From Agapetus fuscipes (Eukaryota > Arthropoda > Insecta > Trichoptera > Glossosomatidae), in NCBI GenBank assembly GCA_951799405.1, contig OX637361.1:8269156-8333155 (forward strand): 64,000 nucleotides of DNA, written 5' to 3'. Shown in pieces: positions 6,837-59,157 of this stretch; within the stretch, counting starts at the first letter, position 1; every line of letters starts with the position of its first letter. The notes beneath the pieces were generated by a model. The model was not told the DNA's origin and ran no database searches. It saw only the letters and a program-made list of their open reading frames with translations. Both the position numbers and the translations under genes were made by a program.

Positions 6837-7627
6837 ACAAAAATTAATGTCTCGACCACTTTGGTGGAGCCCGAATAAATGTTAAAAATACCATTTTGAT
6901 AACGTCACTAATGAGTTCTCATTGCACAACTGAAACATTATTTTTATGCCGATCGGAAAAGTTTACGGCGAGAGAAAATACGAGACGGCGGTGTCACACA
7001 CAGCTGCCGCATCCACAATCATAAAACTCCCGGACTGTTGCTGACACCTGTTAGCGAATAATATCGCTTTACTAATTATTCACATAGATACCGAATTCAA
7101 ATGATAAACAAATGTCAACAAAAGATAACAAAATGTCACTTTGATGTCATAAAATTTAAGGTTATATACACACTATACATATTTGTTATCTTATAAATAT
7201 TCTGCTTTTATTATTTTTTTAAATACATAAATACGTAATCACACACAAAAAAGTAAGAGAGCCTCAATTTTTTGTTAAATTTGTAGATTTATAAGTTCAA
7301 AATATTAAACCGCTTGTCTTATGGCAATGAAATTGTGTAAATAGACAAACCAATATAAGAACTAGCTCGTTTGCCGGTTCAAGAAAAATACTCTTTAAGT
7401 GTTTTGAACATTGACTAATGGTTTTGAAAGTAAATAGTTATTACCTTTACAAAAAAAATATTTTATATTAGGAAAGAAATAAATAAGAAATGTCAGTTAC
7501 TATTTACTTCTAAAAGTTTTAAAGTAAAGGGCTATGCATTTATTTTTCTATTACAACATTGAAATCAATCTTACCAAGACTTTTTTATTTTTTATTTAAA
7601 GATTCCTATTGTTTGAGTTTTTCAGGT
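6837..7627. other. 5' region of the SLC41-type gene
   Basis: Upstream of the minus-strand gene. It is AT-rich, with a GC-richer patch at about 6950-7040 that could be the promoter and 5' UTR. No TATA box or initiator can be assigned with confidence, and nothing else was recognised. Confidence 0.35.
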
Positions 7628-18809: not shown

Positions 18810-18962
18810 ATGTTTCGGAGTAAGATGCGCATGCACACATGCAGGATTATCCTGTTGACTTCCCTGGTTTGGTTGTTGGTGGATGTTGTGGTCCTCATGT
18901 TTTATGCAGACTGCCTGGGATCCTGGGATTGCGGGAAGAAACCCGGAGAATATGACGTAGAG
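18810..18962 (+). CDS. GALNT exon 1: start and signal anchor
   Basis: Encodes [12 protein letters not shown], then a hydrophobic stretch [18 protein letters not shown] of the right length for a Golgi signal anchor, then a short Cys-containing stem ending GEYDVE. The ATG has A at -3. It ends in phase 0 at GAG|gtaact. Vertebrate GALNT1 begins with a similarly short tail and anchor. Confidence 0.85.
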
Positions 18963-21900: not shown

Positions 21901-24900
21901 ATATGAAAAAACTATTTTCAAGAATTAAATAGGTAAGTTAATAAGTTTAAGTTTTTTCATATTATCGCAAAAACTATTCACATTATTCTATTAAAAATCA
22001 CACCACCTACTAGAATTTGTATCATTCTATAATTATGAAGAAAATAAAAATTTCCAAAATACAAAACAACAAAATGTGAGCAAAAACTGTATTTAAAAAA
22101 ACAGTTTTTTTAAATATTTTTTGTGGCGTCATTTTTTAAGTTATATAAAAAAAACTAACTTTAAAATTAATATAAAAAATTATTTCACACGCGTGATTTT
22201 TTTCATTAATGTCACTCTTTTACTAAGGCCATAAAGTATAAGAAACATATTTTTTAAAACAACGGGATTTTTAATTTTGAACACAGGCCAAATAGGTATT
22301 ATATCCAGAAAAGTTTTTATTCGGCAGAATTTTTAAATTTAATTTTTTTATACCTTTTGCTTGTGTCAATAAAAACCTAATTAAACATGTGTAGGTACAC
22401 TTTTTGTATAATACTACTTCAGAATAAAACTAGGAAGTTGTTAAGAATATTTTTTTCACAATAAATGTGAATGAACAAATTACAGAGAATATTATTTAAA
22501 AAAAACGTTTTCTTGGATTCATCATCAAAAAAGTAACTCCTGCGTGGTGTGTAAGCTGTCAGATTGGAATGTCAAAAAAATTTAAAATGCGCGCTAGAGG
22601 CATGAATAAAAATCTGCGCATGCGCAGCCTCAGGGTGGTAACATGGAAAAATAATTTCTTGAGAAGAGTAATTCCTTGTTTATGCCATGATTATAAGTAA
22701 GAAATTTTTATGCCAGGTATAACATTTTACACCGGGCATAGCTATGCCCGGTGATAAGCTTAGAATAAGAAAATCTAATAAGTAACACAAAATAAGTACA
22801 AAATTCTTATTTTAAAAACCCTAGTTCATTCACACAAAAATAGCGCTCACCAAATAAATGAGCCTAATATTATTATTATTTAAACTTTTTATTTATTGTA
22901 TGTGTGGTCAGTCTCATGACAATGTATACTTAAGTCAAGAAACAGTACCTACCCGTAGTACGAGTTGTTTCACAATACTCGAAATATTGAGGATTCGAGA
23001 AAAATGTATGTGAACTTGAAAAGCACCTCTGGCGAGTATTGTGAAAAAACTCATACTACGGGTACTGGGAACATGAAACTCAGTTTTTGCCCATTGTCAT
23101 AAAGATCATTGTACGTGTGTCAAGATGTTTTTCAAGCTGATGATGTGTCCTTTACATATATTATAGAAGTCATTTGAGTCGTATTGAAGGAAAGGCTAAC
23201 CGTAATCTAATTAATCAGAATTATCTGCAGGTTTGTTGGCTTAATCTGCTCTTAATCCAGATTATTGAATGCCCAGGTATGTGTACCTATTGTAATCAAT
23301 AATTTGAGCTAGAATTCATTATCACAACAGGAAAAATGCTAGTAACTGTCAAAAATATTTCAAGATAAGACTCAAAAGATTATCCAGGGCCTATTATTTC
23401 CATAATGAACTCGACACAATCAAAATATCCCTCGACTATGTGAAGTCACCTGTGGCGAAGGGTGCCATACAAGTCGATTCCCATCGGTTTCCCTTTTAAA
23501 ATGAGGCAAAAATGATAATAATGTAGACTGCATGGTTTCAATGGGGAAAAAATATGTACCTATTGTTTCTTTGGTTTTAAATGTATTTTTTTACTTAGTG
23601 CCTGTATTTTTTAACTACTTTGTTGCCTCATTTTAAAAGGGAAGCCGATGGGAATCGAGTTGTATGGCACCCCTCGCCTTTGGAAGTCACACATTTATAA
23701 TCTAAGCTGCAAAGATATATTTACATTTAAGGCTTATGTTTAATGCTCACCCACAGGCTGACACATATGTAAGTTCACGCTTGCACATGCTGCATGTGCA
23801 CGTTCAATAAAAAACAAACCTCGCAACTCCTGCCACCCCTCCCTGAAACAGGGGTGGAATCGGCAAAAGTGAGACGATTTTTCCGAGTATGGAGGTCAGC
23901 GGCATTCCAATCTTTTAGTCGAGAAATACGTACCCCATAATAATTTAAAAAGTGAGTTCCCGATAGTTCAGAAATTTTGGTAGTTAACAGCATTATGCCC
24001 TTACATGCATTTGACAATTAAGTTAAATGCATTACATCAAACTACTTTTTTAGATAAAAGTGTTTTCTCAAACCTGAAGAATTTACATGTTGCGTTGAAA
24101 CATTATCATATTATTGCACTTTGTCTCAAGTTTAACATGTTTATCCCTAGTGGGTTGGTGAAGTTAGATTAGAGATGGATTGTGTTCTAATGAATTAGTG
24201 GGAGGATGTATGCGTGTTCTGCCAACTTTTTGATCGCCCTTTAAGTTAGTAATACGACAAAAAAAAAAATTATAATACAACTAAAATATTGTTTCATCGG
24301 TAGGTTCCGGTTGCAAGCCATCTCAAAGCTGAAAACGACGAGTACCACAAAGGTTTCCAGCACGGAAACAGAAAGAGGGAATCCATAGAGGCCGGTCGAA
24401 AGAGCTACGACAGGTTCATAGATGAGAGTAACCTGCAGTCCCTCGGGCCCTATTCCAAGTCACATCTTCAAAGATGGCTCCCTGCCCCCATGGTCACAGA
24501 ACATCCTGGATCCCCCGGAGAAATGGGTAAACTATTAAACTGTATTTTAATCAAGCCATTCTAAATAAAGCCTATTCATATTTAGTATAATGTTTGTGTA
24601 TTAACTCTGAAAATTCATATTGAATCATATAATAAATGACTTTAAAGAAAAATAATTATGGTTTATTTAAGCTCTGTTTTTTACCACTTTTTTCTTTATT
24701 GATTGTAAATTATGAATGCTTACAGCCCTCATACCATTCTCAGATAAATGAAACTTGAAAATTAAATTAGAAAAGAATATTCATATTGTAGAAAAATATA
24801 AGTAGGTACTGATCATTTTTCAATTCTTTATTTGTATATTTTATTCACACTGTTCACACATATACATCTTTACAGGCATGTTAAGATTGTGAACATTTTT

Positions 24901-27900
24901 CTTGTGTAATAATATGTATGCAAATGCAGATTATAGATTCTATATACATAGCTGTAGATACAAGTGAAAATGGGGTACTGTCACAGACCATTAAGTACAC
25001 ATAGAATCTCCATGTGAGCATTAACCATACTGCATACACTTGATTGTGATACCATCTGGACCAATAAACATCGCAGCACAATGTTAACTTGACCGACACA
25101 CAACACTTCTTTCAATTATTCATTATCTGAAACATATTTTATTTCTGTTTTTATCAAAGAAATATCCAACTTGATTGGAATATAATTTTTTTCTTTGACG
25201 CATAGAAATTGTTGCCATGTATTGATAAGTACATCTTGCTTGATTTTGTGTTACCGGGCTTTGACCGTGGTCCATAGTGTTTTTCTTTTCTTCTTTTTCC
25301 TTTTTCTTGTTCTCTATACTTCTTGAAGACTTCAGCTTACGTTTCGTCACCCCTGTGTGCGACTTCTTCGGAGCTCTGCTCCCTTCTGATGTTTGTACAA
25401 AAGGCGGCGTCTATTTATTTGTAATTGCTAAAGGGGCGATTGTTTGGTGTAAAACTACCCTGCGTCACAACTTCAAAGGGTAGTTCGTAAGGGTACTTCG
25501 TAAGGGTAGATTTTACAGTATGGTTGGTCAGCCTCATACCAACATATAAGTCAAGCTATAACCTATAACAAGCAATAACAAAATATTAGTTTGACTTTTC
25601 CCTAGCAACCCGGCCAGGTGGCGACACAATATTGTCTGTCGATTCACGTGCGGACTTCATTAACAGATCTAGGGTGCCACAAGTGGAAAAGTTTCAAAAA
25701 GAGAAAAATAATTCTTGCAAAAATGCTTATGTTTTGAACAAAGTAGGACGCCAAATACACCTGCCATTTTATTTATATCATAAACCTTTCTGAGTTCTGA
25801 CAGTTTGTCAACACCTAGCATGTATGTGTTATCAATGACATATTTTGAGTTTCTCATTGAGTTAAGTTCTAACCATGACTCAAATAGAACTATAAATTTG
25901 AATTTTTAATCTCAATTTCAAGGTTAAATATGTTATTTACCAAATGTTGGCTGTCTTCTAGGTACATTTGCCTGTATGGGATCCACACCCCTGTCACTAC
26001 TCAATATTTTTTTACTGCCAATCTAGGGACTTAAAACTGTGATATTGTGGTGAAGCATTAACCAGGTCATATTGCATTAGACTATTTGGTCATAGCGCCA
26101 ACACATCAATACATTCAATGTCTCAATTAAGTGTTCGGCTATTGTTTTTTATGATCAACGTTTGTCTTATATCAGTTATTGATTGTGTCCAATGAATGAC
26201 TTGAAATAACAGTGAAATTAAATATTAACAATGCATACAGTCTTTTAGTGCCCTATAAAATTATTCATATGTAGTTAACTGTAAGTTGTAGACTTATTTA
26301 CCAAGCTGATAAAATGCTTTTACAGTTGTTATAATAATAATAATAATATCCAATCATGCAGTTTACTCGATTCCCTTTAATCATATTTTTATTGCTTATT
26401 TTAGAACTGTATTGTTATGTGTGGATTGTTTTCATTTCAGGTAAAGCCGTTGTTATTCCGCCAGAAAAGGAAGCAATCATGAAGGAAAAATTCAAAGAAA
26501 ATCAGTTCAATTTAATGGCCAGTGACTTGATATCATTAAACAGATCCCTCACAGATGTCCGCATGGAAGGGTAATTAAATAAACTTTACCCTTTATATTC
26601 CTTGACTTATAGGTTGGTATGAGGCGGACCACCCATACTGTAAAAAATAGTTCACTTTGTCAATGTCACCCCTGTGTCAAGGAAGGTCGGCAAAAAATGT
26701 AGGGCTTATGTTCATTTGAGGTTTGGATTTTATTTGTAAGTACACATTCAGCATTTGTAAGCGTGAACTACACGTGTTTGTTTGTGGGCATGCATTTGAG
26801 AACTATAAATGAATATATCCTTGCAACTTAGATTATAGATTATAGACCCCTAGTACCTATATAATAAAAGCTACAACGCTCACATACTCTGGGTATTGGA
26901 AAATGTATGGAAGTTTGTGTTTGTATTTACGCTCAATGGAGGTGCTGTTGAATCGTTGTTTGGAAATTTAAGAGCGCCTCCAGTGAATGTAAAAGGCACT
27001 CTGAATCTCCATACCTTTTTTAGTATGCGAGCGTAAACCAGTATGTTGTATACTCGGGTACTTATATCTTGTTTTTTCCCCAGTGGAAAGACATGAAAGT
27101 TATGATTATATTTTGATTTTATTGCAGATGCAAAGCAAAGACATATCCGGATCTTTTGCCTACAACTAGTATTGTGATAGTCTTCCATAACGAAGCTTGG
27201 ACCACGCTGTTGAGAACAGTATGGAGTGTAATCAACCGCTCTCCGAGACCACTGCTCAAAGAAATCATTCTAGTAGATGACGCTAGTGAAAAAGGTGAGT
27301 GTATTTACTCAACTGTTCAATATGAACTCAGCTGCTTCACGTTGACCTTCATTGTATATTTAATTAATTAATATTTTTCTCTCGTAGATCATTTGGGACG
27401 TCAGCTGGAGGACTATGTTCACACATTCCCCGTACCTACGTATGTGTATAGAACAGAGAAGAGATCGGGTCTCATTAGAGCCAGATTATTGGGTGCGAAG
27501 CATGTTACAGGAGATGTCATTACGTTCCTTGATGCGCATTGCGAATGTACAGGTAAAACCAATATTATACTATATATCAGTTGCACTGCTGTGCTAATAT
27601 ATTTCAACATGTCTTCCACAAACAGAAGCATATAGCTTACACACTAAATCATTTCAGTAACAATAGGGTACAGTCAATTAAATAGGTAATGAATAGCACA
27701 TAAGGTACCACTCTGAACTATACAACCTGTACCAAGAGGTTGAAATGGTCCAGTCAATAAAAGTCAGCAGGCTGCGTTGGCTGGGTCACATCCTGCGAAT
27801 GGACCATGAAAGCCTGGAAAATATGTTTGTGTTAAGGAATCCAAAAGGGTGCAGGACAGTGGAGAATCCCAGATTAAGGTGGCAGGACAAATTGGTGGCA

Positions 27901-30900
27901 GACTGCCATGGGACAGGAGTATGAGACTGGAAGAGGAAAGCGTTGGACAGGCAGCGGTGGTTGTGGTTGATAAAAGAGGATAAAATCCACCTCGAAGTGT
28001 GCTGCCATTGATGATGAGTTTGATAAACAAAAAGTGACATTCCAAATAACATAATAGGGCTTTCAATTCAACCGGTCTGTCTTGTTATAATTATCTGCTT
28101 CTAAAAAAGTTTAGAAGCTCCACAAAAGACTTTATGGAAGTAAAGAGACAATTAACAAAGATCCCACGAAACACGGATACAAATCTGACAATTATTACTA
28201 TCAATGTCCATTGAATGAAAATTTAAAATAGCTGTAAGTTGTAGCTACTTTGGGAAGCACTGGACGTTTGTTTACTTCATCTCTTGTCATGATATTACTT
28301 GCAAATTCATCATTGCAGTACATGCAATGTCTGTGAAAAAATTGGGTCATTTTCATTCATTGATTAGCACTATTATAGCGTTGCAAAATCTTTTGCAACA
28401 TTAATTTCTTATATACACAAAATTCACTAAATAAAACAATTATAAAATAATATTTCATGTAGTAACAGCACAAAATAAAACAATGAATGAATATTTTTAT
28501 TTTGATTGCATCATAATTTCCAATGAAATTTAAGTTAAAAATTTTGAATGGATATCATTCATTTTTATTGTAGGTCATTTTAATTTTGCTTTCTCAGTGA
28601 AAAAAATAATTTATAGTTAGTTGTATGACACCTTCAGATGCACAATTTGCAGTATAAAGTATAATTCGGTCAGTATTTCCTGTTTAAATATTGTGTCTAT
28701 AATTTATAATCTAAATTGCAAAGATATGTTAGCATTTAAGATGTATATTCAATGCACTTCCACAAGCAGACATATGTATGTTCGCATTTACATTTGCTGC
28801 ATGTGTACTTACAAAATAAAACAATCTTAAAATTAACTCCTGCTGCCATTCCCTGAAACAGAGGTGAATTTTTGTTGTAAGTTTTTACGGCGTAGGAGGT
28901 CATCCCCATACCAGTGTAATGATAGCTTATGATTGATTATTTCCAGAGGGTTGGTTGGAGCCCCTTTTGGCTCGTATTGTGGAGGATCGCACAACTGTTG
29001 TATGCCCGATCATAGATGTCATATCAGACGAGACGTTTGAATACATAACTGCCTCGGACATGACGTGGGGAGGATTCAACTGGAAACTCAACTTCAGATG
29101 GTGATTATACATATCTTACATTATTTGGCTCATTTTCATTGCAACAACTAAAAACTGTGTCATATCGCTGCCTTAGTGCTTGTTTACTGTAAACGCCATT
29201 GAGCTAATTTTACAGGAGCAATGTTTTTGTGTTTTGTTATTGTAATTGACAAAATCGTAATTCAATTGCCTATTTTACCGAAAGTACTGCAGGTCTGGCA
29301 CTATAATAATCGGTAAAAATCATAATAATGTTACGTTTAATACTAAAAAAAGGCGTTTTAAAATGGATATACGTCAAAGATGCGCAACGGAAATTTCGTA
29401 AAGTGGATATACAGTAAAACGATCTTGAGATTGACCGGACGCTCGCAACAATCTTTTAGTGCTTGTTTACTCTATGCGCCAAATCACATATAAAGGGTGT
29501 TCCAGTCACTTCTTCACCGCACATTATATTTGTTGTACTTATTTAATTCATATTACACAGTAGGCTATTGAACTTTCATTTGACTTTTATTTATTTCTTT
29601 ACTTCCTTCCTTTCCTATTAATACTCTAGTGTTACCAAAGAGATGGAAGAGAGAAGTTTATTATCAAAATATTTTTTTATTTTCTTTAAGGTTTTTTTTT
29701 GTTTTTTACTTTCTTGCTCTAGCTGAAGACTAAAAATTTCATTTTTTTCACGAAATGGTGCTATAAAGAAATCATCAACTAATCATCATCATAAAGAAAG
29801 TATTGATTTGGTGTGAAATTTTTTTTTCGAGGTTTTCACGGAAATGAGTTGTCCTGGTGCAGGACATGCCAAAAAACACTATCTTTCAAAAACGTCCGTC
29901 TGTATGTGTGTGTGTGTGTGTGCGTGTGTATGTGTGTCACTTTCCAAAGTATTAGACTTAGAGATACCAAATTTTGGCTACATCAACTCTTTTGAACATG
30001 TTTTAAATATGAATTACACGGCATTACACCAACTTGAAAATTCAAGATGGCTGCCATACAAAAAAAAACATAAAATTTCAGATGGCAACCCATAGACCCA
30101 GGTTTGCAAGAGTGTTGCCATACCTAATTTTTTTAGTAAAAATTTGAGCAACGACCACACTGCAAAAAAATAATCTTGGAGCCGTTTTTGAGAAAAGTGC
30201 AATTTTATGTTTTTTTTTGTATGGCAGCCATCTTGAATTTTCAGGGTGATCCCATGCCGGTCGGCTCATCAAAATTTGTGGTTGTCAATTCTCTAAATCT
30301 AAAAATTGGTGTCTCTGTGATTAGTAGTATCGGCTGGGACATACACACATACGGACGGACAGGTTCGACAAATTAGGTTTTTTTGCACGTCCTGGCGCAA
30401 GACAACTCATTTCCGTTGAAACCTCAATTTTTTTTTCGGACGAATACAATACTTTATAGCTCCTTCTGACTGCTATAAAGTAAAAATATATTGAAAAGTT
30501 CTCAGCAGTTAGAGTGTTAATAAAAAAATACTTTTTAGAAAATTTAAGACAATAATGATAACTTATATGATGTCATTATTATATTTTCCAAAAAGTGAAT
30601 CACATACAAAGTGAGAAATTTCCAGACAAAATGTTTGGTAATAATCAGAGGGTTAAAATTAGATAAAAGGCTGCGATTCTTAAAACTTTCTAAATAGCAA
30701 TAATAATCAGTCGTTACTTTTTCAAAACATGACAAAAAAGTTTACCCACCATACAAAGTCCAAGTTTGCATACAAAAGCGTTCAATGACCATCTATGTAC
30801 ATATGTATAATAATCGAGAATCGTAGTTGCAACGAAATATTAACATTCAAAACTCAGATCAATTGCATGCCCACAAACAGAAACTTGTAAGTTCGCGCTT

Positions 30901-33900
30901 GCAAATGCTGAGTGTGTACTTACAAATTGAAACCAAATCTCAAATGAACATTAAGCCTGCAACTCTGACATTGACAAAGTGAATTATTTTTTACACTATG
31001 GGTGGTCAGCTTTATACCAATCTATAAATCAAGGTTCTTTCTTGTGTAATTGGCGTTTTTTTCAGAGACGACCAACCTCGCAGAGGGCTCTTGAGGTGTG
31101 ATTCACACAAAACGGCGCTCACCAAATAATCTTTTTTTTCTTCTTGAAACAGCATAAACTGGCAAATGATTCTAGCTTTAAATTCGTCATACAGTGAGTT
31201 AATTTATGCAAGAAAGTCGAGTGCAGATTCTGTGCATTTTTTTTTATTATTTTGAAGAAAACATCAATTATATATCAGAAAATATGTTTTTTTAGGACAA
31301 AAGTTGTAGCTTTCTATCTCTTGTGTAAAATGTTTACGAAAGTAAGTCTGTTTTTATTTTGAATTTCCAAATAGTGCGTGAACTACGTTATTGAAAGATG
31401 GAACATTTTTATACGTTTCAATGTTTTGATGTTTGCTAATGATGCTCCTTGCCTGATAGGTTGGTATGAGGCTGACCCCCCATGCTGAAAAAATAGGTTC
31501 GCTTTTGCTTACGCCACCCTGATTTTACGGATATGTGACAGGAGTTGCAAGGTTTATGTTCATGTGAGATTTTGTTGATTTTAATTTTAAATTTAACGTC
31601 AATTTCAATTTTCAGTAAGGATAGGCAGAATAAGAAGAAATGGAGGCAGCTCTGCAGAGGCTCTGGCCACCCCTAGCGGAATGGCGACAGAATTACAGTT
31701 ACAGTTACATATATACATAAATACTTGTTCAGATTATATTAAATTTTTATGAAAATAGAATATGATCTGTAATTTCGGCTGGTACATGCATACATACATA
31801 TACGGACGGACGGGACATTATGTCTTGGGACATTTATCGGTGGGCATTTTGTCGTGGTACCAAAAATATACTGTAAGTTATCCACGTACGTGTCTAATTA
31901 AGCATTTTGTAATCTCGTATGGCAATTATTGTCTATTAATAATTACCTACTGTTTCACGAACTAAAAATGTAGCAACCTGTATGTTAAAATGCCATTACG
32001 TTCATTTCAACATATAATCGACTAACCGTTCACATTGAACAATGCAATGGCAGAAATTGTTTTTGCAGATGGTCGGGAGATGTTTTTCTTCCTATGAACT
32101 ATAATTTTTAAAGGATTTATCTCAGGAATCCCTTGAAAACTTAAATATTCATCTCAAAATTCCGAGCGGGCTACGGTTAAAAAACGATGTTTAGGTGTGA
32201 CGTCACACCCACGCGCGTCTGTGATTGGCAGATACGGCAGCCACTCGTCAGCCACGCATGCGCATCAGCGTTTGTGGCGTATCCAGTAAACAAGCACTGA
32301 GTTGAAATTTCGAACACAGAATATCGTCTGTGAAAATGTTGAATAACTCGCACATTTGAAGACAAATACGTATTTTTTTTAGCTCAGATTGTGTAGAATT
32401 TTATTCTTAAGACAACTGCATCAAAAAGTCATATTTGACAAGATTGGCGTATACAGTAAACAAGAACTGGGGGAGCGATATGTAAACTTCCAGGACTTGT
32501 GGTCGTGGGCTGATATTCTATCAAACAGTATATTAAATATTGCCAGTGAATAATAAATTCAGCACAATAAAAAACCCTTGTCTATGTCACGTCACAAATG
32601 ACTTCTAAATAATCAGGAAATGTTTCTATTTTAAACCATTTTGAAATATTTGCAGTTGACAGTTATGTTTAATGCTGTATGCAGCGCTTTAGTGTCTTTT
32701 TACAAGCTACCTAAATAAAATTGTAATAAAGTCATGACTGTTCTGCCTCTAGCCTGGTTGTGACACGCTATAAAAATTAAATTGAAATCAAGTTCAGGTA
32801 ATTCATCTTGTAAAGAACATTCTAGTGCAGGGGTCAGCAACCTGCGGCTCTTTGGATGTGAAGCTGCGGCTCTTTAGCTGCATACGCAAATATTATTTAT
32901 TTTATCAAAAGCACTTAAAAATCATTCTGAATCGATTAATGAGTATTACGCACCGATTCTATCTCTCAGCTTCTTGTACTTGCTTTTCACCCCCCCCCCC
33001 CTCGCCGACGCTACTTTTTTGTTGGCAAGAAACCATTTGTGGCTCTTTATTCTCTTATTCTCATTGTACTCATTTGTGGCTCTTAATGTTAATGTTAATA
33101 ACACAGCATCAACGGATCAGTCCCAACAGCCTATGCTTAGTATTTAAAAAAAAAAAAAAAAATTGACAGTGGCAACATAATTTTACAGGTATCGTGTGCC
33201 GGAAAGAGAGATGGCGAGGAGAGGCAACGACCGCACGTCTCCCCTGCGCTCCCCCACAATGGCGGGCGGCCTGTTTGCCATAGACAGGGAGTACTTCTAC
33301 AAGGTGGGCTCCTACGATGAAGGCATGGACATCTGGGGCGGCGAGAACCTTGAAATGAGCTTCCGGGTAACATATACTCTTAATCTATTATTACTTAAAA
33401 AAAAATATATTTTATTTTGATTTGAATCTTTTATAAGATTAAGTTTGTTTCTGGTGAAAATCTGTGAAGCCTTGTTTCAAATAGAATTTTTTTTTTGTAC
33501 ATTGGTTGACTTATGGGTTGGTATGAGGCTGACAACACACACTGTAATAATGGTTCACTTGTGTGACCCCTGTTCCAGAGAAGGTCATCAAAAGTTGCAG
33601 GACCTATTTTTATTTGAGATTTTTGTCTTTATTTTGCAAGTGAACATGCGGCATGTGTGAGCGCTATCTTACCCTTGGATTTGAAAAGCCGTTTTCACAT
33701 TGTGAAGTCACTTTTTATGTTTTAAAAGAATCCATTGACTAAAAGTTAAAATTGGTTCACTTGTGCCAATGCCATCCTTTTCTCAGGGAAAATCGGTAAG
33801 ATTTGCTGAGGGTTCTCCTTCATAAGTTCACATGCATATGTGAGTGCGAACTTACACATGTTTACTTATGGGCATGCATGAGGCATAAATGTTGATGTAT

Positions 33901-36900
33901 CTTTGAATTCAAGATCTTAAATACAGATTGTGTATCCCAATTTCACAAGATCCCAGAAACTTGTTTACTCACTGTGGTTTTTTTTACCTGCAGAGAAAAT
34001 ATGAAGTTTAAATGTATTTTACACTGGAGAGTTGCTTCCCGGGATCTGCTGCCATGGTGTATCAGAGCTAAAACTTCCAGACATTTCACCCATGCCTGCG
34101 ACTGGCTTTTCAGCATGAAGATGATAATGTTGATGAAAATGTTTAAACAGATCCTGGAAAGTAACTCATCAATGTCAACCGCGGGCCTAAAATTCCTGTT
34201 AAGTGTATTTTGTTAGACATTGTTAAGTATGCAGTAATAACACATTGATTTCCTGTGGACTGCGGGGTAGGTGTGGCAGTGCGGCGGTATATTGGAGATA
34301 ATCCCGTGTTCCCACGTCGGCCACGTGTTCAGGGACAAATCCCCGTACACGTTCCCGGGTGGCGTAAGTCGAATTGTCCTACACAATGCGGCGCGCGTCG
34401 CCGAGGTCTGGATGGACGAGTGGCGAGACTTCTATTACGCCATGAACCCAGGTTGGCAATCACTGGAGGGACTGTGCATCCCATACATCTCACCCGTGGA
34501 ATCAAAAATTAACAAATCCTAACATCTTTGTATGCAAACATTCATAGCTAATATCATTGACTTAACAACGGTTATTTTGTTACTTATTTTACTAAATTAT
34601 TAGCTAATATCAACTATTCAAAAATTATTTTTGTATGTTCCTTGATATAATAGATTAGTTTCAGAGAAAGGCAGCATGAGTTTCAAAGTTTATGTTCATT
34701 TGAGGCTTAACCGCAGGTGTAACCGCAAATTTACACCTACACTTGTGGGCGTACATGAAGTATGAATTTAAAATGTTCATACATCTTTGCAACTTAGATC
34801 ATAGATAGGATCTTTATTTTTCACTTCACATGTCATCATTAACCGCTTTTGCATGTGAATTAAGACAAGCGTATTCAGAAACAATGCTGCTTTTGAATGC
34901 AAAATCTGATTGGTTCTTATAAACACAAGTACCGATCAGATGCTTGGAATTCACACATAGCACTGTGAAGTCTCACTGCGTCGTTTATGAATACAAATCT
35001 AAGCGTCTATTCACCGCTCAATTTTGCTTATAAGTGGGTTGATCTGAAATTTGTTGGTTTTCCGTAGGAACATTCTCAAATGGCCTAAAGCAAAACTTAG
35101 TTTATATTCTAGTTTTTCAGCAACAAATTACATAATTCCTTGAAATTACATCAAATACAATACAATCTTCTGCACAATAATTAAGATACATGCAGATAAT
35201 TTGTTTCATATAAAACCAAATGCAGCAATCTAGTTTTTTTTGTACATGCTATAAATATATGGAAGCATAGACAATTCCATTTTCTGTGATTCTATACATT
35301 TATCTTGTTTTAAAAAAAATCCTAGATTGCAGTCTTTAGTTCTATACAGTTGAATTGTCATTTTAGAATGCAACATTGTTAGACTAGATTCAGTTTCCTA
35401 TTTAGTAACCAATATCTGTATTCAATTACTCTTTCCATTACTTAGAAACAGTTAATTTTCTTAATTTGTGTTGCCTTTATAAATTATATAAATTATTCAA
35501 GTGGGAGAACATAAAAATGTACAATTCGATACACCAGTTCCAAACTAATGCAAGTCTGAAATTTTACGGTATTGAGTTATGTATGAGGAAATGTGTGAAA
35601 TGATGATATCTACCAGTTCCAAAGACCTACAAGCCGTAATGTCAAGAAAAAATAAATTACAGCACATAAATTACTTTAGAAATATAATTTCTAAACATAT
35701 TTGTCCGTTCCATACTACTTTAATCATTGTTTTCTCGAGATAATGGTTTTTTGAGTTGTGGGAGTTTGGTACTGGTGTATCGATTGATTTGTATCTCTGA
35801 GAAAGCACATAAATATGATTTTATTTTAAATTAATAACTTAGTTAACCGCAGTTTTAGATTCAATATTTCATGTTTGATTCTACATGTTATTTATACAAA
35901 GGAGTTTTATTAGTTTTTAATAACTTTTTATTAGGTAATCAGTTTAAGTAGCATAATCTATGTGTGCCTGGAAGAAAATATTTAGCCGAAACTTATGTTG
36001 TATTGATAATTAATTGTTGTGGTTGATTTGGCTCATCATTTTTTTCCTTATTGTCATTTTGCCACAATCACGAATGTGACTGTCATAATTCAGTTTTAGG
36101 AATCTTCAAATCTTAGGATCTCATGACGTAATAGATTAATTTAGTATTATTTGGCACAAGCTGTAACAATTTTAGGTCAATGAATAAAAATAATAGGTTA
36201 ACCAGTAACAATCATAAAATCGGTAACAATCTTAGGTTGACATTAACAAAAATGGGTTAATCGGTAACAATTATAGGTTGATAGTAACAATTTTAGGTTG
36301 ATAAGTAACAATAATGGGATAATCAGTAACAATTATAAGTTAGTAAAAATCTTTGGTTAATCAGTAACAATAATGGGTTAATCAGTACCAATAATGGGTT
36401 AATCAGTAACAATATTATGTAGGTTGATCAGCAGCAATAATGGGTTATTCAATAACGATAATAGGTTGATCAGTAACAATTCTAACAAATTACATTAACA
36501 AATTACTGTAATGGTCTCTAATATTATTGATAATTGTAGACGGAGTAAATAACTAAACATTTTATTTTTGCAGTTCATCTTACACTCAACTAACACAACA
36601 TTCATCCATCCATAATAATATGTCCAGCATTCAAAATAGCTCATCGCAACAAATCAATGATAAAAAAATATGCATCAATGCAATGGATTTGGAAAGTGCA
36701 TTAAAATCGTAAAATACATAGACAGAAAGAGAATTTTACAAACTTTGAAATGTCTGAATGCTATGGTTCATTTCTAAGTCAAATCCAGCACCTTACAAAA
36801 GAAGACAAAGTTACAAAGTTCACATTCTTACTCGCTCATGACTTTTGATGTGGCTCCAGTGCCTTAAATATAATACATTTACAAAAACTCCCCTCGAATG

Positions 36901-39900
36901 TGTGAATCAAAATGCATGAAATATACGAGAGCACAACTATTGAGTGATAAGTTTTCATGCATTTTAATGATTTACGTTACTGTGGGGAGTTTATTTAATG
37001 CTTTACACTCGGGGTGCAGTAAAACAAAGAGCATCCTTATTTAATTTTATACTTTGAATATAAAAATATGTGTCTTATTTTCCAATTTTGTTGTTGTTGT
37101 TTTGACAATAATTCAATCTCAAGATGTCAATTGATATTTTCTTCATACGAATTGGATGCTTTGGAAACCAATAGTACCTAATAATTTTCACATTGAACAC
37201 TCTGACCTGCACAATGTGTGTCTAACAGTATCATTGATTGCATTATTAACTCAATTAACAAAACAAAATGTACTGAACTACGGAGGGGATTCTAATGGAG
37301 TCTACGCACGGTGTAAGAAACTAATGCATTAGCAGTTGAATGTATGTGTTTTCGAGTATACATACCCACGGAGATCTCACCACTACCTCAACCCAAATGG
37401 TTCTCAATTCGAGCCTTGGCCACCTTCAACCTCTGCCTGTCCTGCGATTCTGCTGTACAGTTCGCAACTTGTAAAAGCTGGGCCAGATCCTTCCCCAGTT
37501 TGTCCCTCTACGATCTCAGATATCAAAATCTACACCTCCCTAAAAATACAAGAGCTCAGGATGTAGAAGAAAATTTTAAATCATAGATGGCGCTGATCCC
37601 AATGCATTACAGCGCTGCGTTCAGATTAAAGTGCTGCCACCTTGACAATTTGCAACTAACTTCAAGCCAGTCTGATTCAAATATTGGAGGGTAGTTTTTG
37701 CCTGTTGTCATTGACGGTTCACACAACTAGACACAACTGACATACACGAAGAATTGTGATTTTGCCCCCCCAGATTGGCAGGGAAAAAACTTGCTAATGT
37801 TTTATGATTGGTTGCTAAGGACCCTATTCACATTGACCTGTGATGTTGGTCTGCCTACAAAAAAACAATTTTGTTACTCCATTTTTGTAGTTTTTACTAA
37901 TGTCTTAGTAAATTATATTGCGTCCATATTTGACAACAGTATTTTCATTCATAGCCTTCTCAATAATATATTAGGGACAATAGATTTATATTAATAAATA
38001 ATATGCATGACGAGCAAAGCCTAATTTGTAAAAAAATTTAGATTACGGTATACTTTAAGCAAATAAAATAAAATGAAAAGCTGGACCAGCTCAACAGAAA
38101 CGTAAGCTTCTGTCTTAGCTGATTCTGACTCATGTAGATGATATCAACCGAGGAAGAGATCTCATTAAAAATAGCCGTTGCCCTCCCTACAGTCACAATT
38201 AAAAAAAAAAAAATTGTACTCTGAAACACATATTAAACTACTGAAGCACTCGATACTCGCATTGTTGTGGCGGGCTTTCTCCTAGAGTCTGTTGAGTTGA
38301 GCACATTTTGTTGACGTGATGTTTGGTCCTCGGTGGCTGGGCAGGTGTGGATGTGCGGGGGTACCCTGGAGATCTCCCCCTGCTCGCACGTGGGCCACGT
38401 GTTCAGAAAGTCCACGCCCTACTCCTTCCCGGGGGGCACGAGCCGCATAGTCAATCATAATAACGCACGACTCGCCGAAGTCTGGCTTGACTCGTGGAAG
38501 AATTTCTACTACAGCATAAACCCAGGTTCATTTGACTAATCCTTCTAACTCATTGCATTACCCGCTTCTGTACCTTTGTGATTTGTTTGCATGGTTAGCA
38601 CTTGGTGTGTAGCTTTTACAATAGCTTAGAAGACTTTAAACAAGAGAAAAAAACTTGGTTCTCATGAGTTTCATTCCCTCTCAAGTACCACAAGTATAAA
38701 ATGTTGCGTAAACTCACCTCAATTGTATAAATAGAAAAAATGTATGTAAACTAAATCACTCACTAAGGGTGCTGTTGAATCTTTTGTACATTTTTCTTTT
38801 ACGCAATCTCTGGGAGCTTACAAAATATTTTATATCCAGGATATTTGTTTTTACTCTGCATAAAGTCGCCAAATTATTGTTAAAACTACACGCCCTTAGT
38901 CAATTTTTCAACAGAATACTAGTTGGGTCTGCAAAAAATAGTCACTTTATGTTTTTAAGTGTTTCAATAAAAACCTTGCTAGTTAGATGTAATTAAAAAA
39001 TAAAAACAATGCACACATCCAATTCGGTTTTTTGTTGATTTGTTGATGCAAATATTGGTGACAAAAATTACCAATCATGTTTGTTTTCTTGACATTCTGG
39101 GCCGTAATTATGATAACACCCCTAGAGGCAGTTATTGCTTTTAAGGCATCTTTCTCTGCATCTATACCACTTTCTCATGAAACAATGCTAAACTGCCGTC
39201 AGCGGCGCCATCAAAATTGTGGCCTTGATTCCAATCTAAATTGAACTACAACTTTTACCTAGTATTCAAAATTCACACACTTTTAGAAAACAGCAGAGAA
39301 GAGTATTTACACAAGTTTTCTCTCTTTGATTTCTGTGCATTCAATGCAATTTTTCCGTCAACTATTTATTTTGAATTTATAATTGCTGTAAAAGCAAAAA
39401 ACTTCATTCACTAAAATTTAATGGTGATTGATGTTTGTGTAATGATTTAGATATTTGGTAAAAAGTTTTTGGTTTATTTTATAGCGCTTTTAGAGTGGCT
39501 ATGTCACAAAAGAAATCACCAACTCATCTTCATCTTTATGTGTCATACTTTAAGTAAACAAATCATTTGCTTTTGTGACATCTTCATACAGCTTATATCT
39601 TATTCATTTGAATCAGCGGATCTTAACCTTTTTGTAGCCAGGGACCACTTTGACCTTTTTCTTTCAATCAGGGTCATTTTATCTTGATGGTTTTGTGGTC
39701 TCAGGGACCATTAATTTGAAAAATTCTATTCCTTGGCTATTCTTTTACGTGTGCTGCATAATAATTCCGAAATTCTCGCATACCACTGGTTAAGAACCAC
39801 TGATTTCTATGTAACTTTTTTAAAAATTTTAAGTTCTATGGAACCAAAGGCAGCAATCTAAGACGTTATTTGAAAATACATAAATAGATGGAAACACACA

Positions 39901-41784
39901 GAATGTAATTTTCTGTGTACTTATACATATACTTTACCCCCTAAAAACATTTCACAATAGAAAAACATATTGTGATATGACATCACTTGTGAGTGATATA
40001 GTTTTCATACATGTTTTAGATTTGAAAGCCATCAAGGGGAGTTTATGTAATGTTTTATACTCGGTGTATTTATCTTATTTTACAAAACTATCCTAGGCTG
40101 CCGGATTTGGTTCTATACGACTTATATATTCTCCTTAACTATTTTTTTATTCAAGTTTTACAAAGAATTGTTTTGATATTGTGTACATATTTTGTTGTTG
40201 TTGTAAAAGTGTATGGACTATTTTAGGTGCTCGGATGGTCCCCGTTGGTAATATAACGGAGAGGAAAGAGCTGAGGGACAAGCTCAAGTGCAAGAGCTTC
40301 AGGTGGTACCTGGAGAATGTGTACCCTGAGAGTCAGATGCCGTTGGATTACTATTATCTGGGAGACGTGAGTACAAATAATGGCATTTTAACAAATAATC
40401 AATTATAGTTTTCCTCTCGAAACGCGAACATCTCTAGGACTCTCTGTCTGTTGCTGCTTCCCTTCATAATGCCCTCACTCCCAGAACTTTGGCGTTGGCT
40501 TCGACATTGTCTGCCCACCGCATCCTGGGACGTCCGATCGGTCTAACACCGGAGGGGGCACACTCCAAGATATTTTTTTATTATCCTGCAGTCCTCTGCA
40601 CTTCCCACGTGTTCGGCTCACTTAAATTCCTCTTCAAATTTGCCTCCTGGAAAAGCTGTGTTGAATCTCTGAGTGATTATATTCTTCATTACAGATACGA
40701 AATGTCCAAACTCAAAATTGCCTAGACACAATGGGCCACAAGTCAAACGAGAACCTTGGCATGTCATACTGCCACGAGTTGGGCGGCAACCAGGTGTTTG
40801 CCTACACCAAGAGGCAGCAGATCATGTCGGATGACAACTGCCTGGACGCTGCGCAGCCCAAGGGTCCTGTGAAGCTGGTGCGCTGTCACGGCATGGGAGG
40901 GAACCAGGCGTGGACCTACGATACAGAGGTAATCATTCTCATACAATTGAAAATCGATCTTGCTAATCATGTTGCAGATAAGGACGGGTTCCTCAATGAT
41001 TCTTTCTTCTGTTTTTTTTTTCTTTTTCAAAAAAGAGGAATGCCTTTTGACAACTTTGGATACGACTTTGACAAAATGTTTAAAAGATAATTCTTTTCTA
41101 TAACGCAGTTCGTAAAATATATTTTTAACTCTTTACAAAATGACCATTATTCTACTTATCATTTGCATTTCAACAAAGTATTAAAATATCTTTTCAAAAG
41201 TGCCTTCCTAGCTTAGCTATTATGCTAGTGTAATAGGAGTCACATAGAATAAGACAGCAATGAAGGATTATTGTTAAAAATGTGATAAATTTATGAGAAC
41301 ACTGAAAATGTTACAGAGAAAACACAATTGCTTACCCGTTCAAACTTACCATCCGAATAACAGGATCTTACAATTTGGTCGGCCTTTATGCTATTGCAGG
41401 AATTCAATTATTCAAGGAACATTTCTGATACTCCCAGTGGAATCAATCCCGAGCTCTCGGCATAGAATGCAAGCATTCTGCCAACTGACCAGACAAAGTT
41501 AGTGTATATGCATTGAAAATAGACACTAAAGATAAGAATAGGGACAGGATAATGTGCCTGTATTGCTAGAAATAACATGATTGATTGTGTGTTTGCAGAG
41601 CAAGACTATAAAGCACAGCAACACGGGGGCGTGCCTGCAGCGCGCGGATGTGTCGGACCCTCAGGTGCCGCTGCTGAGGCCGTGCACCGGGGGCCCAGGC
41701 CAGCAGTGGCTCATGGACACCAAGTTCAAGTGGCAGGCGGACGGCGGGGCGGCAAACAAGCAGCACAACGGCCACGCCAGCTAG
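18810..41784 (+). CDS. Polypeptide N-acetylgalactosaminyltransferase (GALNT1/13 type), whole gene
   Basis: Golgi type II membrane enzyme that transfers GalNAc from UDP-GalNAc to Ser/Thr and so starts mucin-type O-glycans. It has eleven exon positions, all with GT-AG introns and compatible phases: 18810-18962, 24304-24527, 26441-26570, 27128-27294, 27388-27552, 28947-29100, 33189-33366, 34271-34451 or 38345-38525, 40227-40366, 40695-40928 and 41599-41784. The product is about 636 aa if an apparent one-base excess in exon 2 is discounted. Order: short cytosolic N terminus, signal anchor (residues about 11-31), stem, GT-A catalytic domain with DAHCE (the DxH metal motif), the Gal/GalNAc-T motif DIWGGENLE, the CSHVGHVFR metal histidine and flexible loop, then a ricin-type lectin domain with three QxW-like repeats. 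Protein similarity is closest to GALNT1/13. The introns are full of repeats. Oddities are two alternative catalytic-loop exons and the exon 2 frameshift. Confidence 0.93.
19192..19515 (+). pseudogene. CR1/L2-like LINE 3' fragment in GALNT intron 1
   Basis: Frame [38 protein letters not shown] and [14 protein letters not shown], ending in a stop near 19510. It is homologous to the 3' part of the element at 11830-12140. Only the C terminus remains. Confidence 0.75.
19608..19735 (+). repeat. SINE tail module, sense copy
   Basis: ACTCAGCCTTCACAAGAAATG through CCTTACCTGTGAAAATATAT match the tail domain of the 50.4 and 63.1 kb SINEs. It directly abuts the inverted SINE that follows, giving a tail-to-tail pair. 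Confidence 0.65.
19736..20236 (-). repeat. Two-headed SINE: head A, linker, head B, tail
   Basis: On the minus strand: head A with B box GGTTCGAATTC at about 20235-20160, the shared linker to about 20010, head B (GGTCGATAGCTCAATTGGTA, an A-box-like start) at about 20006-19945, then the tail (TTTACTCAGCTTTCACAAGA) to about 19740. The same module order is seen at 50385-51650. Head B is shortened here. Confidence 0.75.
20608..20812. mobile_element. hAT-type MITE with 8-bp target duplication
   Basis: The ends are CAATGGTTTCCAAACT and AGTTTGGAAACCGCTG, the classic hAT terminal pattern. CATTAAAG flanks both sides exactly (20600-20607 and 20813-20820). The interior is non-coding and carries a run of G. 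Confidence 0.9.
20955..21523 (-). repeat. R1 copy split by a 290-bp insertion
   Basis: The minus-strand 3' part (20955-21115) and 5' part (21412-21523) join into one full R1 at the point AACAT/CTCTGCAACTCTTGCC. The inserted element is the one at 21121-21411. Confidence 0.75.
21121..21411. mobile_element. Inverted-repeat element inserted in R1
   Basis: The ends are GGCCGTCCATAAATTACGTC and (as reverse complement) GGGCTGCCCATATATTACGTC. It contains a 20-base C run at 21166-21185 and further C-rich patches. Repeats with 'CCATAAATTACGT' termini are widespread in insects. The class is not fixed, because no clean duplication is readable. Confidence 0.6.
21600..22788. mobile_element. 1.2-kb non-autonomous DNA element with GTGTTACTTAT ends
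   Basis: Left end GTGTTACTTATAAATTGAGA; right end, reverse complemented, GTGTTACTTATTAGATTTTC. Inside are repeated CCTGGTATAAC/CCGGGCATAGC-like boxes, also inverted. The interior is AT-rich with no ORF of note. No certain target duplication was seen. Confidence 0.55.
22829..22862 (+). repeat. SINE tail type 1 fragment
   Basis: TTCACACAAAAATAGCGCTC ACCAAATAAAT matches the end of the SINE at 843-1117. The rest is absent. Confidence 0.5.
22943..23068. repeat. 126-bp inverted-repeat element
   Basis: CAGTACCTACCCGTAGTACG at the left and TACTACGGGTACTG at the right are complementary, and the pairing continues inward to ACAATACTCG/CGAGTATTGT. It is a MITE-like hairpin of unknown class. Confidence 0.55.
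23450..23682. mobile_element. hAT-type MITE (M3) with 8-bp target duplication
   Basis: The ends are CTGTGGCGAAGGGTGCCATA and, inverted, CAAAGGCGAGGGGTGCCATA. GAAGTCAC flanks both sides exactly (23442-23449 and 23683-23690). A related copy is at 61182-61409. Confidence 0.9.
23691..23935 (-). repeat. R1 copy
   Basis: Full-length but diverged: TAATCTAAGCTGCAAAGATA at its minus-strand end, a TCCCTGAAACAGGGGTG box in the middle and CATTCCAATCTTTTAGTCGAG at the start. Confidence 0.7.
24304..24527 (+). CDS. GALNT exon 2: stem region, apparent one-base frameshift
   Basis: It joins exon 1 in phase 0 ([21 protein letters not shown]) and reads a charged stem to [10 protein letters not shown]. After that the entry frame hits a stop at the exon end, while the +1 frame gives [15 protein letters not shown], which matches the conserved GPGEMGK of GALNT1 and is the frame needed by exon 3. 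The switch lies in the C-rich run near 24480-24490. Removing one C makes the whole gene a single frame (exon length 223 rather than 224). Either there is an indel error in the sequence or this allele is broken. Intron boundaries are tag|GTTCCG and ATGG|gtaaac. Confidence 0.75.
25333..25385 (-). ncRNA. Hammerhead-like motif
   Basis: On the minus strand: AGCT, core CCGAAGA, an extra A, GTC...GAC as stem II, GAA, self-complementary ACGT, A, then AGCT, which can pair with the first AGCT. This is the same layout as the motifs at 13.1 and 50.05 kb, and likewise with C at the U4 position. Activity is unknown. Confidence 0.35.
25505..25680. repeat. R1 fragment followed by an R3 copy
   Basis: 25505-25560 is the first 55 bp of R1 on the minus strand (GTATGGTTGGTCAGCCTCAT). 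25562-25680 is an R3 copy with CTAGCAACCCGGCCAGGTGG and CACGTGCGGACTT. Confidence 0.55.
26441..26570 (+). CDS. GALNT exon 3
   Basis: Encodes [40 protein letters not shown] and MEG, the strongly conserved start of the GALNT catalytic domain (GALNT1 has [20 protein letters not shown]). It enters in phase 1 after cag and leaves in phase 2 at GG|gtaatt. Confidence 0.93.
26597..26850 (+). repeat. R1 copy
   Basis: Full-length, TTCCTTGACTTATAGGTTGG to CTTGCAACTTAGATTATAG. It lies only about 25 bp after the exon 3 donor. Confidence 0.8.
26873..27035. repeat. 160-bp inverted-repeat element in intron 3
   Basis: CAACGCTCACATACTCTGGG and the right end TAGTATGCGAGCGTA are complementary with gaps, as are AAAATGTATGGAAG and CTCCATACCTTTTT. 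The class is unknown. Confidence 0.5.
27128..27294 (+). CDS. GALNT exon 4: start of nucleotide-sugar binding region
   Basis: Encodes [39 protein letters not shown] and [17 protein letters not shown] and LVDDASE are signature GT27/GT-A blocks that contact UDP-GalNAc. It enters in phase 2 and leaves in phase 1 at AAAG|gtgagt. Confidence 0.95.
27388..27552 (+). CDS. GALNT exon 5: DxH metal motif
   Basis: Encodes [20 protein letters not shown], then [15 protein letters not shown] and [12 protein letters not shown]. The D and H of DAH are the Mn2+-binding DxH pair of the family, and RSGLIRARL is invariant in active GALNTs. It enters and leaves in phase 1. Confidence 0.95.
27720..28015 (+). pseudogene. 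Degenerate LINE C-terminal fragment in intron 5
   Basis: Reads [20 protein letters not shown] and, further on, [13 protein letters not shown], the 'RLRWLGH...RMD ... RPRxRW' pattern near the end of RTE/jockey-like reverse transcriptase ORFs. Stops follow, so it is inert. Confidence 0.65.
28695..28920 (-). repeat. R1 copy
   Basis: Minus-strand R1 from AATCTAAATTGCAAAGATAT to the CATCCCCATACCAGTGTAAT start. It ends about 25 bp before the exon 6 acceptor. Confidence 0.65.
28947..29100 (+). CDS. GALNT exon 6
   Basis: Encodes [33 protein letters not shown] and [12 protein letters not shown], all near-identical to GALNT1. It enters in phase 1 and leaves in phase 2 at ATG|gtgatt inside the Trp codon. 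Confidence 0.95.
29820..30480. repeat. Degenerate foldback-like inverted repeat
   Basis: GGAAATGAGTTGTCCTGGTG near 29839 is mirrored by GACAACTCATTTCCGTTG near 30401, and AAGATGGCTGCCATAC by GTATGGCAGCCATCTTG. The centre is near 30130. The motifs are the same as inside the giant palindrome arms (9600-9850), including a short ACGG block at 30353-30360. So it is an older, shorter relative. A GT-rich microsatellite lies at about 29906-29940. Confidence 0.7.
30830..31035 (-). repeat. R1 copy
   Basis: Minus-strand, diverged. GGTGGTCAGCTTTATACCAA marks its start. Confidence 0.6.
31060..31130 (+). repeat. SINE tail type 1 fragment
   Basis: GACGACCAACCTCGCAGAGG and GATTCACACAAAACGGCGC match the end of the 843-1117 SINE. 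Confidence 0.65.
31452..31690 (+). repeat. Partial R1 and a LINE tail fragment
   Basis: 31452-31580 is the first half of R1 (GATAGGTTGGTATGAGGCTG). 31612-31690 (AAATGGAGGCAGCTCTGCAG and following) resembles the end of the LINE remnant at 62.4 kb (GTGGAGGTACCGGCCACCCC). Confidence 0.5.
32828..33110. mobile_element. hAT-like fragment
   Basis: CAGGGGTCAGCAACCTGCGG is a typical hAT left end, and repeated GTGGCTCTTTA-type boxes follow. No matching right end was found, so it is probably truncated. A C run lies at about 32990-33001. Confidence 0.5.
33189..33366 (+). CDS. GALNT exon 7: Gal/GalNAc-T motif
   Basis: Encodes [40 protein letters not shown] and [13 protein letters not shown]. The WGGENLE block holds the Glu/Asn that bind the sugar and catalytic water region. 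It leaves in phase 0 at CGG|gtaaca, which lets either of two following exons join. Confidence 0.95.
33505..33930 (+). repeat. Two diverged R1 copies in tandem
   Basis: 33505-33672 (TTATGGGTTGGTATGAGGCT to GCATGTGTGAGCGC) and 33745-33930 (GTTCACTTGTGCCAATGCCA to the end region). Both are worn. Confidence 0.55.
34271..34451 (+). CDS. GALNT exon 8a: alternative catalytic-loop exon
   Basis: 181 nt, phase 0 in and phase 1 out. Encodes [20 protein letters not shown], then [16 protein letters not shown], then [18 protein letters not shown]. It holds the metal-binding HVGH histidine and the flexible loop that in GalNAc-T2 closes over UDP-GalNAc and contacts the acceptor peptide. The donor is CAG|gttggc, which is weak inside the intron. 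The acceptor is ggtag|GTGTGG. If the donor is not used the frame runs 23 more codons to a stop at about 34519. It is 44/61 residues identical to exon 8b by hand alignment. Confidence 0.93.
34640..34808 (+). repeat. Diverged R1 copy between the alternative exons
   Basis: GTTCCTTGATATAATAGATT start and CTTTGCAACTTAGATCATAG end, with internal deletions. Confidence 0.5.
35206..35352. repeat. M1 MITE copy
   Basis: Ends ATATAAAACCAAATGCAGCA and GATTGCAGTCTTTAGTTCTA. Intact, about 147 bp. Confidence 0.6.
36161..36485. repeat. Minisatellite, unit about 20-24 bp
   Basis: Around fifteen imperfect copies of a unit like GTAACAATAATGGGTTAATCA. It sits in the intron between the two alternative exons. Confidence 0.85.
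36868..37013. repeat. M2 MITE copy
   Basis: The left end contains ACATTTACAAAAACTCCCC, and the right end GGGGAGTTTATTTAATGCTT is its near complement. Related copies are at 39940-40069 and 51893-52035. Confidence 0.6.
38345..38525 (+). CDS. GALNT exon 8b: second alternative catalytic-loop exon
   Basis: Same length (181 nt) and same phases as exon 8a. Encodes [20 protein letters not shown], then [16 protein letters not shown], then [18 protein letters not shown]. All metal and sugar residues are kept. Loop residues differ (RKSTPYSF in place of RDKSPYTF), and the N-terminal half differs at Q/M, I/T and I/S. The acceptor is gggcag|GTGTGG and the donor CAG|gttcat. GALNT1 has RKATPYTFPGG, so 8b is closer at the loop. 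Including both exons, or neither, shifts the frame, so the two must be mutually exclusive in functional mRNA. Confidence 0.93.
39614..39802. mobile_element. hAT-type MITE
   Basis: The ends are CAGCGGATCTTAACC and GGTTAAGAACCACTG. The flanking octamers ATTTGAAT (39606-39613) and ATTTCTAT (39803-39810) match at 6 of 8 positions, consistent with an old duplication. Confidence 0.75.
39832..40129. repeat. M1 MITE with a nested M2 MITE
   Basis: The M1 ends are CTATGGAACCAAAGGCAGCA and GGCTGCCGGATTTGGTTCTA. An M2 copy at 39940-40069 (CATTTCACAATAG to GTTTATGTAATGTTTTATAC) sits inside. The insertion ends about 100 bp before exon 9. Confidence 0.6.
40227..40366 (+). CDS. GALNT exon 9: end of catalytic domain
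   Basis: Encodes [39 protein letters not shown] and YYYLGD, the conserved '[13 protein letters not shown]' linker to the lectin domain. It enters in phase 1 and so accepts either exon 8. It leaves in phase 0 at GAC|gtgagt. Confidence 0.95.
40400..40590 (-). pseudogene. LINE C-terminal fragment in intron 9
   Basis: On the minus strand: [20 protein letters not shown] and EAATDRE, the 'GRPxxRWxDxV' end of RTE/jockey-like ORFs. Fragment only. Confidence 0.55.
40695..40928 (+). CDS. GALNT exon 10: lectin domain, alpha and beta repeats
   Basis: Encodes the first two repeats of the ricin-type beta-trefoil: NCLDTMGH ... GGNQVFAYT and [10 protein letters not shown] ... GGNQAWTYD. Both keep the CLD motif whose Asp binds GalNAc in this family. 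Phase 0 at both ends. Confidence 0.93.
41437..41495 (-). repeat. SINE head B fragment in intron 10
   Basis: AGTTGGCAGAATGCTTGCAT and CCGAGAGCTCGGGATTGATT (minus strand) match head B at 63.3 kb. Confidence 0.5.
41599..41784 (+). CDS. GALNT exon 11: lectin gamma repeat and stop
   Basis: Encodes [35 protein letters not shown] and a hydrophilic tail ending NGHAS. QQW is the third QxW motif. The usual CLD is CLQ here, so the gamma site has probably lost direct GalNAc binding. The TAG stop is at 41782-41784. The exon is very GC-rich compared with its surroundings. Confidence 0.93.
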   Translation, partial: SKTIKHSNTGACLQRADVSDPQVPLLRPCTGGPGQQWLMDTKFKWQADGGAANKQHNGHAS

Positions 41785-58250: not shown

Positions 58251-59157
58251 CTAACGGCTTCAATGGACTATGCCTGCAGATCCCAAACTAAACTTTTCAA
58301 GTTTAAATTTCAAATAATACTTATTCAAGTATTAATACATTCTGGGATAAATAGATCTAATGAATAAGTCAATCAATATTTAGAATTATCTTTCTTGGCT
58401 TGGAAATGATTAGGATTAAACCATTTCAAAGGGTTGTTTTGCATTGCCCAAGATTTTTCCATGTGGTTTTCAACGTTATGGAGACTTAATGTGATACAAA
58501 GAGACGAGTATTAGTACTACTCAAAGTATCTAATTTGTCCTTTTTGTAAGTTTTTCCTGCTTTATTCTAAACCGATAGTATGAAGAACTTTTTCTTGTAC
58601 AAGTATCTTGACTGGATTAAATAAATCAATTTTGCATAGGAAAGTTACAAATTATGTGTATTATTATTTTCAGTAATAACATTGCTTGGTTATGTAATGG
58701 AAGAACTGATAAGAACTCACTTTTTATATATGTAAGACTAAAATTAAGCACTGCTTGAAATGTTACATATACTTAAGTAAGATTTGTGCCACTCGCATGA
58801 TCTGAGGTGGTTAACTAAATGTTATGATAATTTGTTATGCATACATTGTCAGATAACAGTTTCAGTTGTATATTTTTTGTACATTTACCTTATTACTTAC
58901 TTCATAATAATTAATAAATGACGTTTTTAGGGCCGGTCTTATAAACGTCCGTTAGTTAAATGTCGTACCAAATTAACCGAAAAATAATACAAACGTCACA
59001 TTTTTCGTCTTATAACGATCCGTTCGTTTAATTTCCGTAAAAAGTTACCGACAGAACTAACCGACAGCCGAGGCAGCGATTAATCGCAGATACCGGCCGG
59101 TAACTTAAGGTTTGAGGTTAGGTTATCTGTCAAAGCATTGTTTCTTTGCGGTGAGTT

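Follow-up and report, generated by a model that had tools for sequence, protein, structure and literature searches.

Alternative active-site exons in a caddisfly Pgant5 gene and their probable age

We consider a gene that is, with high confidence, the Pgant5 (GalNAc-T1-type) gene of a caddisfly in which an active-site exon has been duplicated in tandem, with each mRNA taking either copy A or copy B. The switch between the two exons is itself already known; the addition made here is its age, and the protein and exon sequences compared suggest that it is far older than the flies. In the explanation that we regard as reasonably probable, the A isoform with its Asp-bearing loop would be a second GalNAc-T1-type activity, one that would have arisen by one duplication before the millipede split, been kept tighter than B and be no adaptation to the fly salivary gland.

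The gene and its two exchangeable exons

The window (the whole 64-kb stretch of DNA under study) contains a complete GalNAc-transferase gene of 12 coding exons, 11 of which enter each transcript, and an open frame of 636 residues results with exon A as well as with exon B. The exon borders were placed by hand, using the frame, the splice dinucleotides and the likeness to known family members, and all exons lie on the + strand. Coding exon 1 (18810..18962, donor GTAACT) holds the start codon and a hydrophobic membrane anchor of the kind that GalNAc-transferases have at their start, and its beginning is similar to that of Arctopsyche PGANT5; coding exon 2 (24304..24526) encodes the stem and is followed by coding exon 3 (26441..26570). 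The catalytic domain is carried by coding exons 4 (27128..27294, with HNEAW and DDAS), 5 (27388..27552, with DAH), 6 (28947..29100) and 7 (33189..33366, in phase 0 at its end). Alternative exon A (34271..34451) has a loop like that of pgant5A, and alternative exon B (38345..38525) a loop like those of pgant5B and GalNAc-T1. The constitutive exon after them (40227..40366) is entered in phase 1 from either, and a further constitutive exon (40695..40928) with the ricin-type lectin domain leads to the last coding exon (41599..41784), which holds the end of the lectin domain and the stop codon. A Ricin_B_lectin match (3e-20) in the frame spanning 40695-40928 places the lectin domain after the catalytic domain.

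The A form of the protein is identical to isoform X1 of the Arctopsyche grandis PGANT5 at 549 of 629 aligned residues, and the exon A peptide is the same in both. In a protein tree of 36 out of 315 fetched proteins (420 columns, with the swapped exon left out), the window's protein groups with that of Arctopsyche grandis at 100/99, then with moth and flea. From these comparisons the gene is most likely the caddisfly orthologue of Pgant5 (GalNAc-T1-type). Other open frames in the window include one of 473 codons (5460-6881, - strand) that matches an MgtE-type divalent cation transporter (2.4e-39), one of 466 codons (42248-43648, - strand) with a reverse transcriptase domain (4.2e-32) directly downstream of the gene, and one of 384 codons (59155-60309, + strand) with a DDE_Tnp_4 transposase domain (6.3e-32).

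The original prediction, made from the DNA of the window, described A and B as two homologous exons of 181 nt, entered in phase 0 and left in phase 1, with 44 of 61 residues identical. All of this is confirmed: each exon has an AG upstream and a GT downstream, and the identical residues are 43 of the 60 full codons plus the split Gly codon. The two are identical at 126 of 181 nucleotides, and tblastn of each against the other gives an E of about 1e-30, which excludes a chance resemblance; the same searches, with A and with B, find no third copy of the exon in the 64-kb window. By the Nei-Gojobori method, dN is about 0.24 and dS about 1.62 (dN/dS about 0.15), values that fit an old duplication with purifying selection on both copies. 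The use of both exons or of neither does break the frame, as predicted, since with both together the frame ends at 38458, inside exon B, and with neither it ends at 40254, inside the exon that follows. These premature stops lie 442 and 347 nt upstream of the last junction, so that decay of the A+B and the exon-less RNAs would be expected. Each mRNA would then carry A or B, with the other, frame-shifted combinations presumably destroyed.

What is replaced by the exchange? The duplicated exon corresponds to GalNAc-T2 positions 342-401, which include the last of the metal ligands, the flexible loop closing over the substrate and the helix-turn-helix beside the lectin domain. The exons were thought to swap the flexible loop, and the loop does differ, but the swap covers about 60 residues, that is, the loop plus the helix-turn-helix. 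The further claim that both exons hold all metal- and sugar-binding residues stands for the His of GHVFR, which is kept in A and in B, falls at GalNAc-T2 position 359 by alignment coordinates and which we take to be a metal ligand. The loop triplet is DKS in exon A and KST in exon B, giving Asp versus Lys at fly residue 419. Isoform A would join the D-K-S loop to a hydrophobic helix I, and isoform B, the GalNAc-T1-like one, the K-S-T loop to polar residues.

Exon use in relatives and the splice signals

Is exactly one of the two exons used? Both exons are indeed found in related species, where the original prediction had advised looking for them: among the matches listed, 12 insect species are represented by separate records for A and for B with 300 of 300 flanking residues identical, the species being counted by reading the listed pairs, which are mostly predicted isoforms. 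The proteins on listed contigs shorter than 6 kb, which are probably transcripts, carry one exon in 34 of 34 cases (21 A, 13 B). For the gene family, these paired records and one-exon proteins support the idea that one gene can make two transferases by exon choice. The 226 records listed comprise 106 with A only, 103 with B only and 12 with A then B; of the remaining five, two fail to match the pattern, one carries a duplicate A-type copy, another has a second match that is spurious, and the fifth is the millipede pair. Judged by the loop letters alone, both loops occur in 14 of the 226, and 12 of these have two full exon frames. The A-then-B records lie on contigs longer than 100 kb in nine cases and have no listed contig in three; we take the A+B records for gene-prediction errors, a reading that is unproved. 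In Gryllus longicercus, A-only, B-only and A+B records are all present under a single locus name. The insect records are often titled PGANT5 isoform X1 or X2.

We turn to the splice sites. The donors of A (GTTGGC) and B (GTTCAT) start with GTT, as do none of the nine other donors of the gene, and the nine bases before the acceptor's final NAG contain five G in A and six in B, with 0-4 in the nine other acceptors. By a coarser count the A and B sites are no weaker than the rest, with 8/17 pyrimidines (the same as in two other exons) and 6/9 donor matches. The GTT donors and G-rich acceptors are hints of regulated sites. Their departure from the gene's other exons would also suit the reading that Agapetus fuscipes uses a single exon and that the other one is a decaying relic. 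This we consider very improbable, for both exons are open, have their splice sites and keep the conserved His; with the low dN/dS between A and B goes the conservation in the 12 insects, where exon A is identical to that of the window at 55-59 of 60 residues and exon B at 52-54 of 60. In the same insects the 150 residues upstream of the swapped exon are identical at 127-132 and the 60 downstream at 45-48, and A is nearer than B to the window's copy in 12 of the 12 species.

We keep to the choice between the two exons. Steric hindrance between A and B is ruled out as the means of exclusion, the intron between them being 3893 nt long. The region 33367-40226 gives 80 inverted pairs as a raw count with no shuffle baseline, the best among the 25 listed being an interrupted stem; because the count lacks that baseline, we do not take the pairs as evidence for intron pairing as the enforcer of the exon choice. 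The interrupted inverted repeat 38683-38763 / 39989-40071, in the intron downstream of B, may be either a pair of transposons or a stem in the RNA. As for a regulator, pgant5 appears in an altered-splicing table for the fly TDP-43 (TBPH) knockout within the available text of PMC3385985, and TDP-43 may, by analogy, serve as a lead toward the control of pgant5 splicing.

Conservation and age of the exon pair

How old is the pair? We found no dating of the Pgant5 exon pair in the open-licence literature. Our exon lists comprise the best 120 of 672 and the best 120 of 297 hits, ranked by similarity to the window's exons. Among the 121 A and 114 B exons listed (millipede excluded), 16 columns differ in their commonest residue, most sharply at T2 positions 344, 363-365, 373, 378, 381 and 384. 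At positions 378 and 381 the listed A exons mostly have L and A, and the listed B exons N and N, which fits the hydrophobic versus polar helix I of a 2025 preprint on the fly gene (PMC12776162). The DKS loop is present in 120 of the 121 listed A-type exons, and in the records listed the exons bearing it reach damselflies, mayflies, flies, an aphid, a copepod and a lobster. The one A-type exon without DKS is an additional copy in Dendroctonus, which has GQT and lies next to a DKS copy. The Dendroctonus ponderosae record has three loop copies (GQT, DKS, KST) and one partial exon piece, which may reflect an expansion of the cluster in bark beetles or a faulty gene model. In a record of the moth Phthorimaea operculella, B-type exon pieces are repeated, with the loop KTT.

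This distribution bears on the proposal of the same preprint that Drosophila acquired isoform A recently, as an adaptation to its basic salivary mucins. The kinetics and the rescue given in its available text speak for the proposal, but the DKS exon of damselfly, mayfly, aphid, copepod and lobster makes it unlikely that isoform A evolved for those mucins, and we give a recent origin in flies almost no credence.

An exon tree was built from 47 peptides, taken from 33 of the 315 fetched proteins together with the window's A and B, mouse T1 and human T2. It has 17 of 17 A exons on one side of a single branch (94/83) and the insect and crustacean A exons together at 98/90, in a tree of 60 columns with 3 of 41 inner branches well supported, a bootstrap that is unsettled and a root that serves for drawing only. 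A single change is enough to account for the A exons of the insects, the copepod, the lobster and the millipede, and this holds in all 200 bootstrap trees (100%). The tree agrees with a single origin of the A/B pair.

The millipede Chamberlinius has a related exon pair, whose first exon, with the loop DRS, falls with the A exons in the tree; this A-side exon is identical at 43 of 60 residues to A and at 43 of 60 to B. An exon of the pseudoscorpion Cordylochernes scorpioides, with the loop KKT (45/60 to A, 47/60 to B), is the tree neighbor of the A group (92/92). With this placement, an origin as early as the arthropod stem would be conceivable. No A-type exon is seen among the listed chelicerates, as 17 of 17 rows have KST (from the best 120 of 297 hits and the best 120 of 150, where clusters may hide isoforms). 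Further out, a few exons from deuterostomes or nematomorphs resemble A and B about equally: that of Saccoglossus has 41 identities to A and 40 to B, and that of Gordionus 39 and 37 (of 60). Two Gordionus proteins were considered as isoforms and dropped, since they differ throughout and are taken as paralogues. Among the matches listed, 89 further family proteins include none with DKS and 13 with Asp at the first loop position, four of them DRS, and PGANT1 and PGANT8 also have Asp according to the available text of PMC12776162. Asp alone is therefore no mark of A.

Could the A- and B-type exons have come from separate duplications in several lineages? Dendroctonus with its extra copies indicates that further duplications do occur, and most human, fly and nematode tandem exon events are treated as unrelated in what is available of PMC9741552. 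The equal distance of the millipede exon from A and B points the same way, as do the DRS loops among the distant members. Set against the one change in all bootstrap trees and the 16 columns that separate A from B, however, repeated origins appear unlikely to us. We think that there was probably one duplication, and we place it, with moderate confidence, before the millipedes split from the crustaceans and insects.

Function of the switch and comparison with known systems

The original prediction held that such a swap was undescribed for a GALNT1-type gene, and here it was wrong, because the Drosophila isoforms pgant5A and pgant5B have already been described (PMC12776162). In the available text of that preprint the two differ within residues 398-457, the flexible loop plus the helix-turn-helix, with D419-K420-S421 in pgant5A and K-S-T in pgant5B; pgant5A is the main salivary gland form, and a fly knockdown is rescued partly by pgant5A and not by pgant5B. 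The same text reports a higher kcat/KM on the basic Sgs1 mucin repeat owing to D419, and adds that the gain is smaller on Sgs3, where K419D is without benefit to B, and that the two isoforms are alike on neutral T-rich peptides. A different peptide preference between the loops, as had been suggested, is thus borne out in the fly. For the caddisfly gene we infer a charge effect on acceptor preference by analogy, from the same loop triplets. The switch alters the charge at the acceptor groove, and A should therefore prefer basic acceptor peptides; B would be expected to perform at least as well on peptides that are neutral or carry glycans already. Against this explanation as a whole we count the 14 both-loop records, the exon tree with its few well-supported branches, the Asp that is not specific to A and the smaller Sgs3 effect.

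A charge-switching exon conserved far beyond the flies means that its original substrates are to be sought outside the Drosophila salivary mucins. If the origin before the millipedes is true, arthropods would be expected to share a long-standing class of basic acceptor proteins, perhaps in gut, gland or cuticle, and the silk (labial) glands of caddisflies and moths would be one place where the isoform was put to use later. In the available text of PMC12661448, Pgant5 is reported as enriched in the middle silk gland of one moth, and a modification of sericins by it is doubted on the ground that it lacks a signal peptide. The hydrophobic membrane anchor at the start of the caddisfly protein makes a Golgi role plausible. 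The exon pair offers a simple test for glycosylation in caddisfly and moth silk glands.

The closest known system is the Drosophila pair pgant5A/pgant5B, which shares with the caddisfly pair the orthologous gene, the exchanged fly residues, the DKS/KST loops and the hydrophobic versus polar helix I. It differs in that the insect is another one and that expression and kinetics were measured there. In a 2022 study (PMC9741552), Pgant5, GALNT13 and gly-5 are named among the genes with tandem exon substitution events, with the events of human and worm placed alongside cases of convergence, as far as the available text goes. Drosophila pgant9A/pgant9B (PMC6115407) is alike in that a splice switch in a GalNAc-transferase alters the charge close to its active site, but in the accessible part of that paper the swapped exon belongs to the alpha repeat of the lectin domain and not to the catalytic loop. 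GalNAc-T1, unlike pgant5, does not yield two isoforms of this kind according to the available text of PMC12776162. When the caddisfly exons are matched to the structure proteins GalNAc-T1 and GalNAc-T2 (PDB 1xhb, 2ffu), B is closest to T1 (2.8e-28), and A is about equally close to T2 (3.4e-24) and T1 (4.9e-24).
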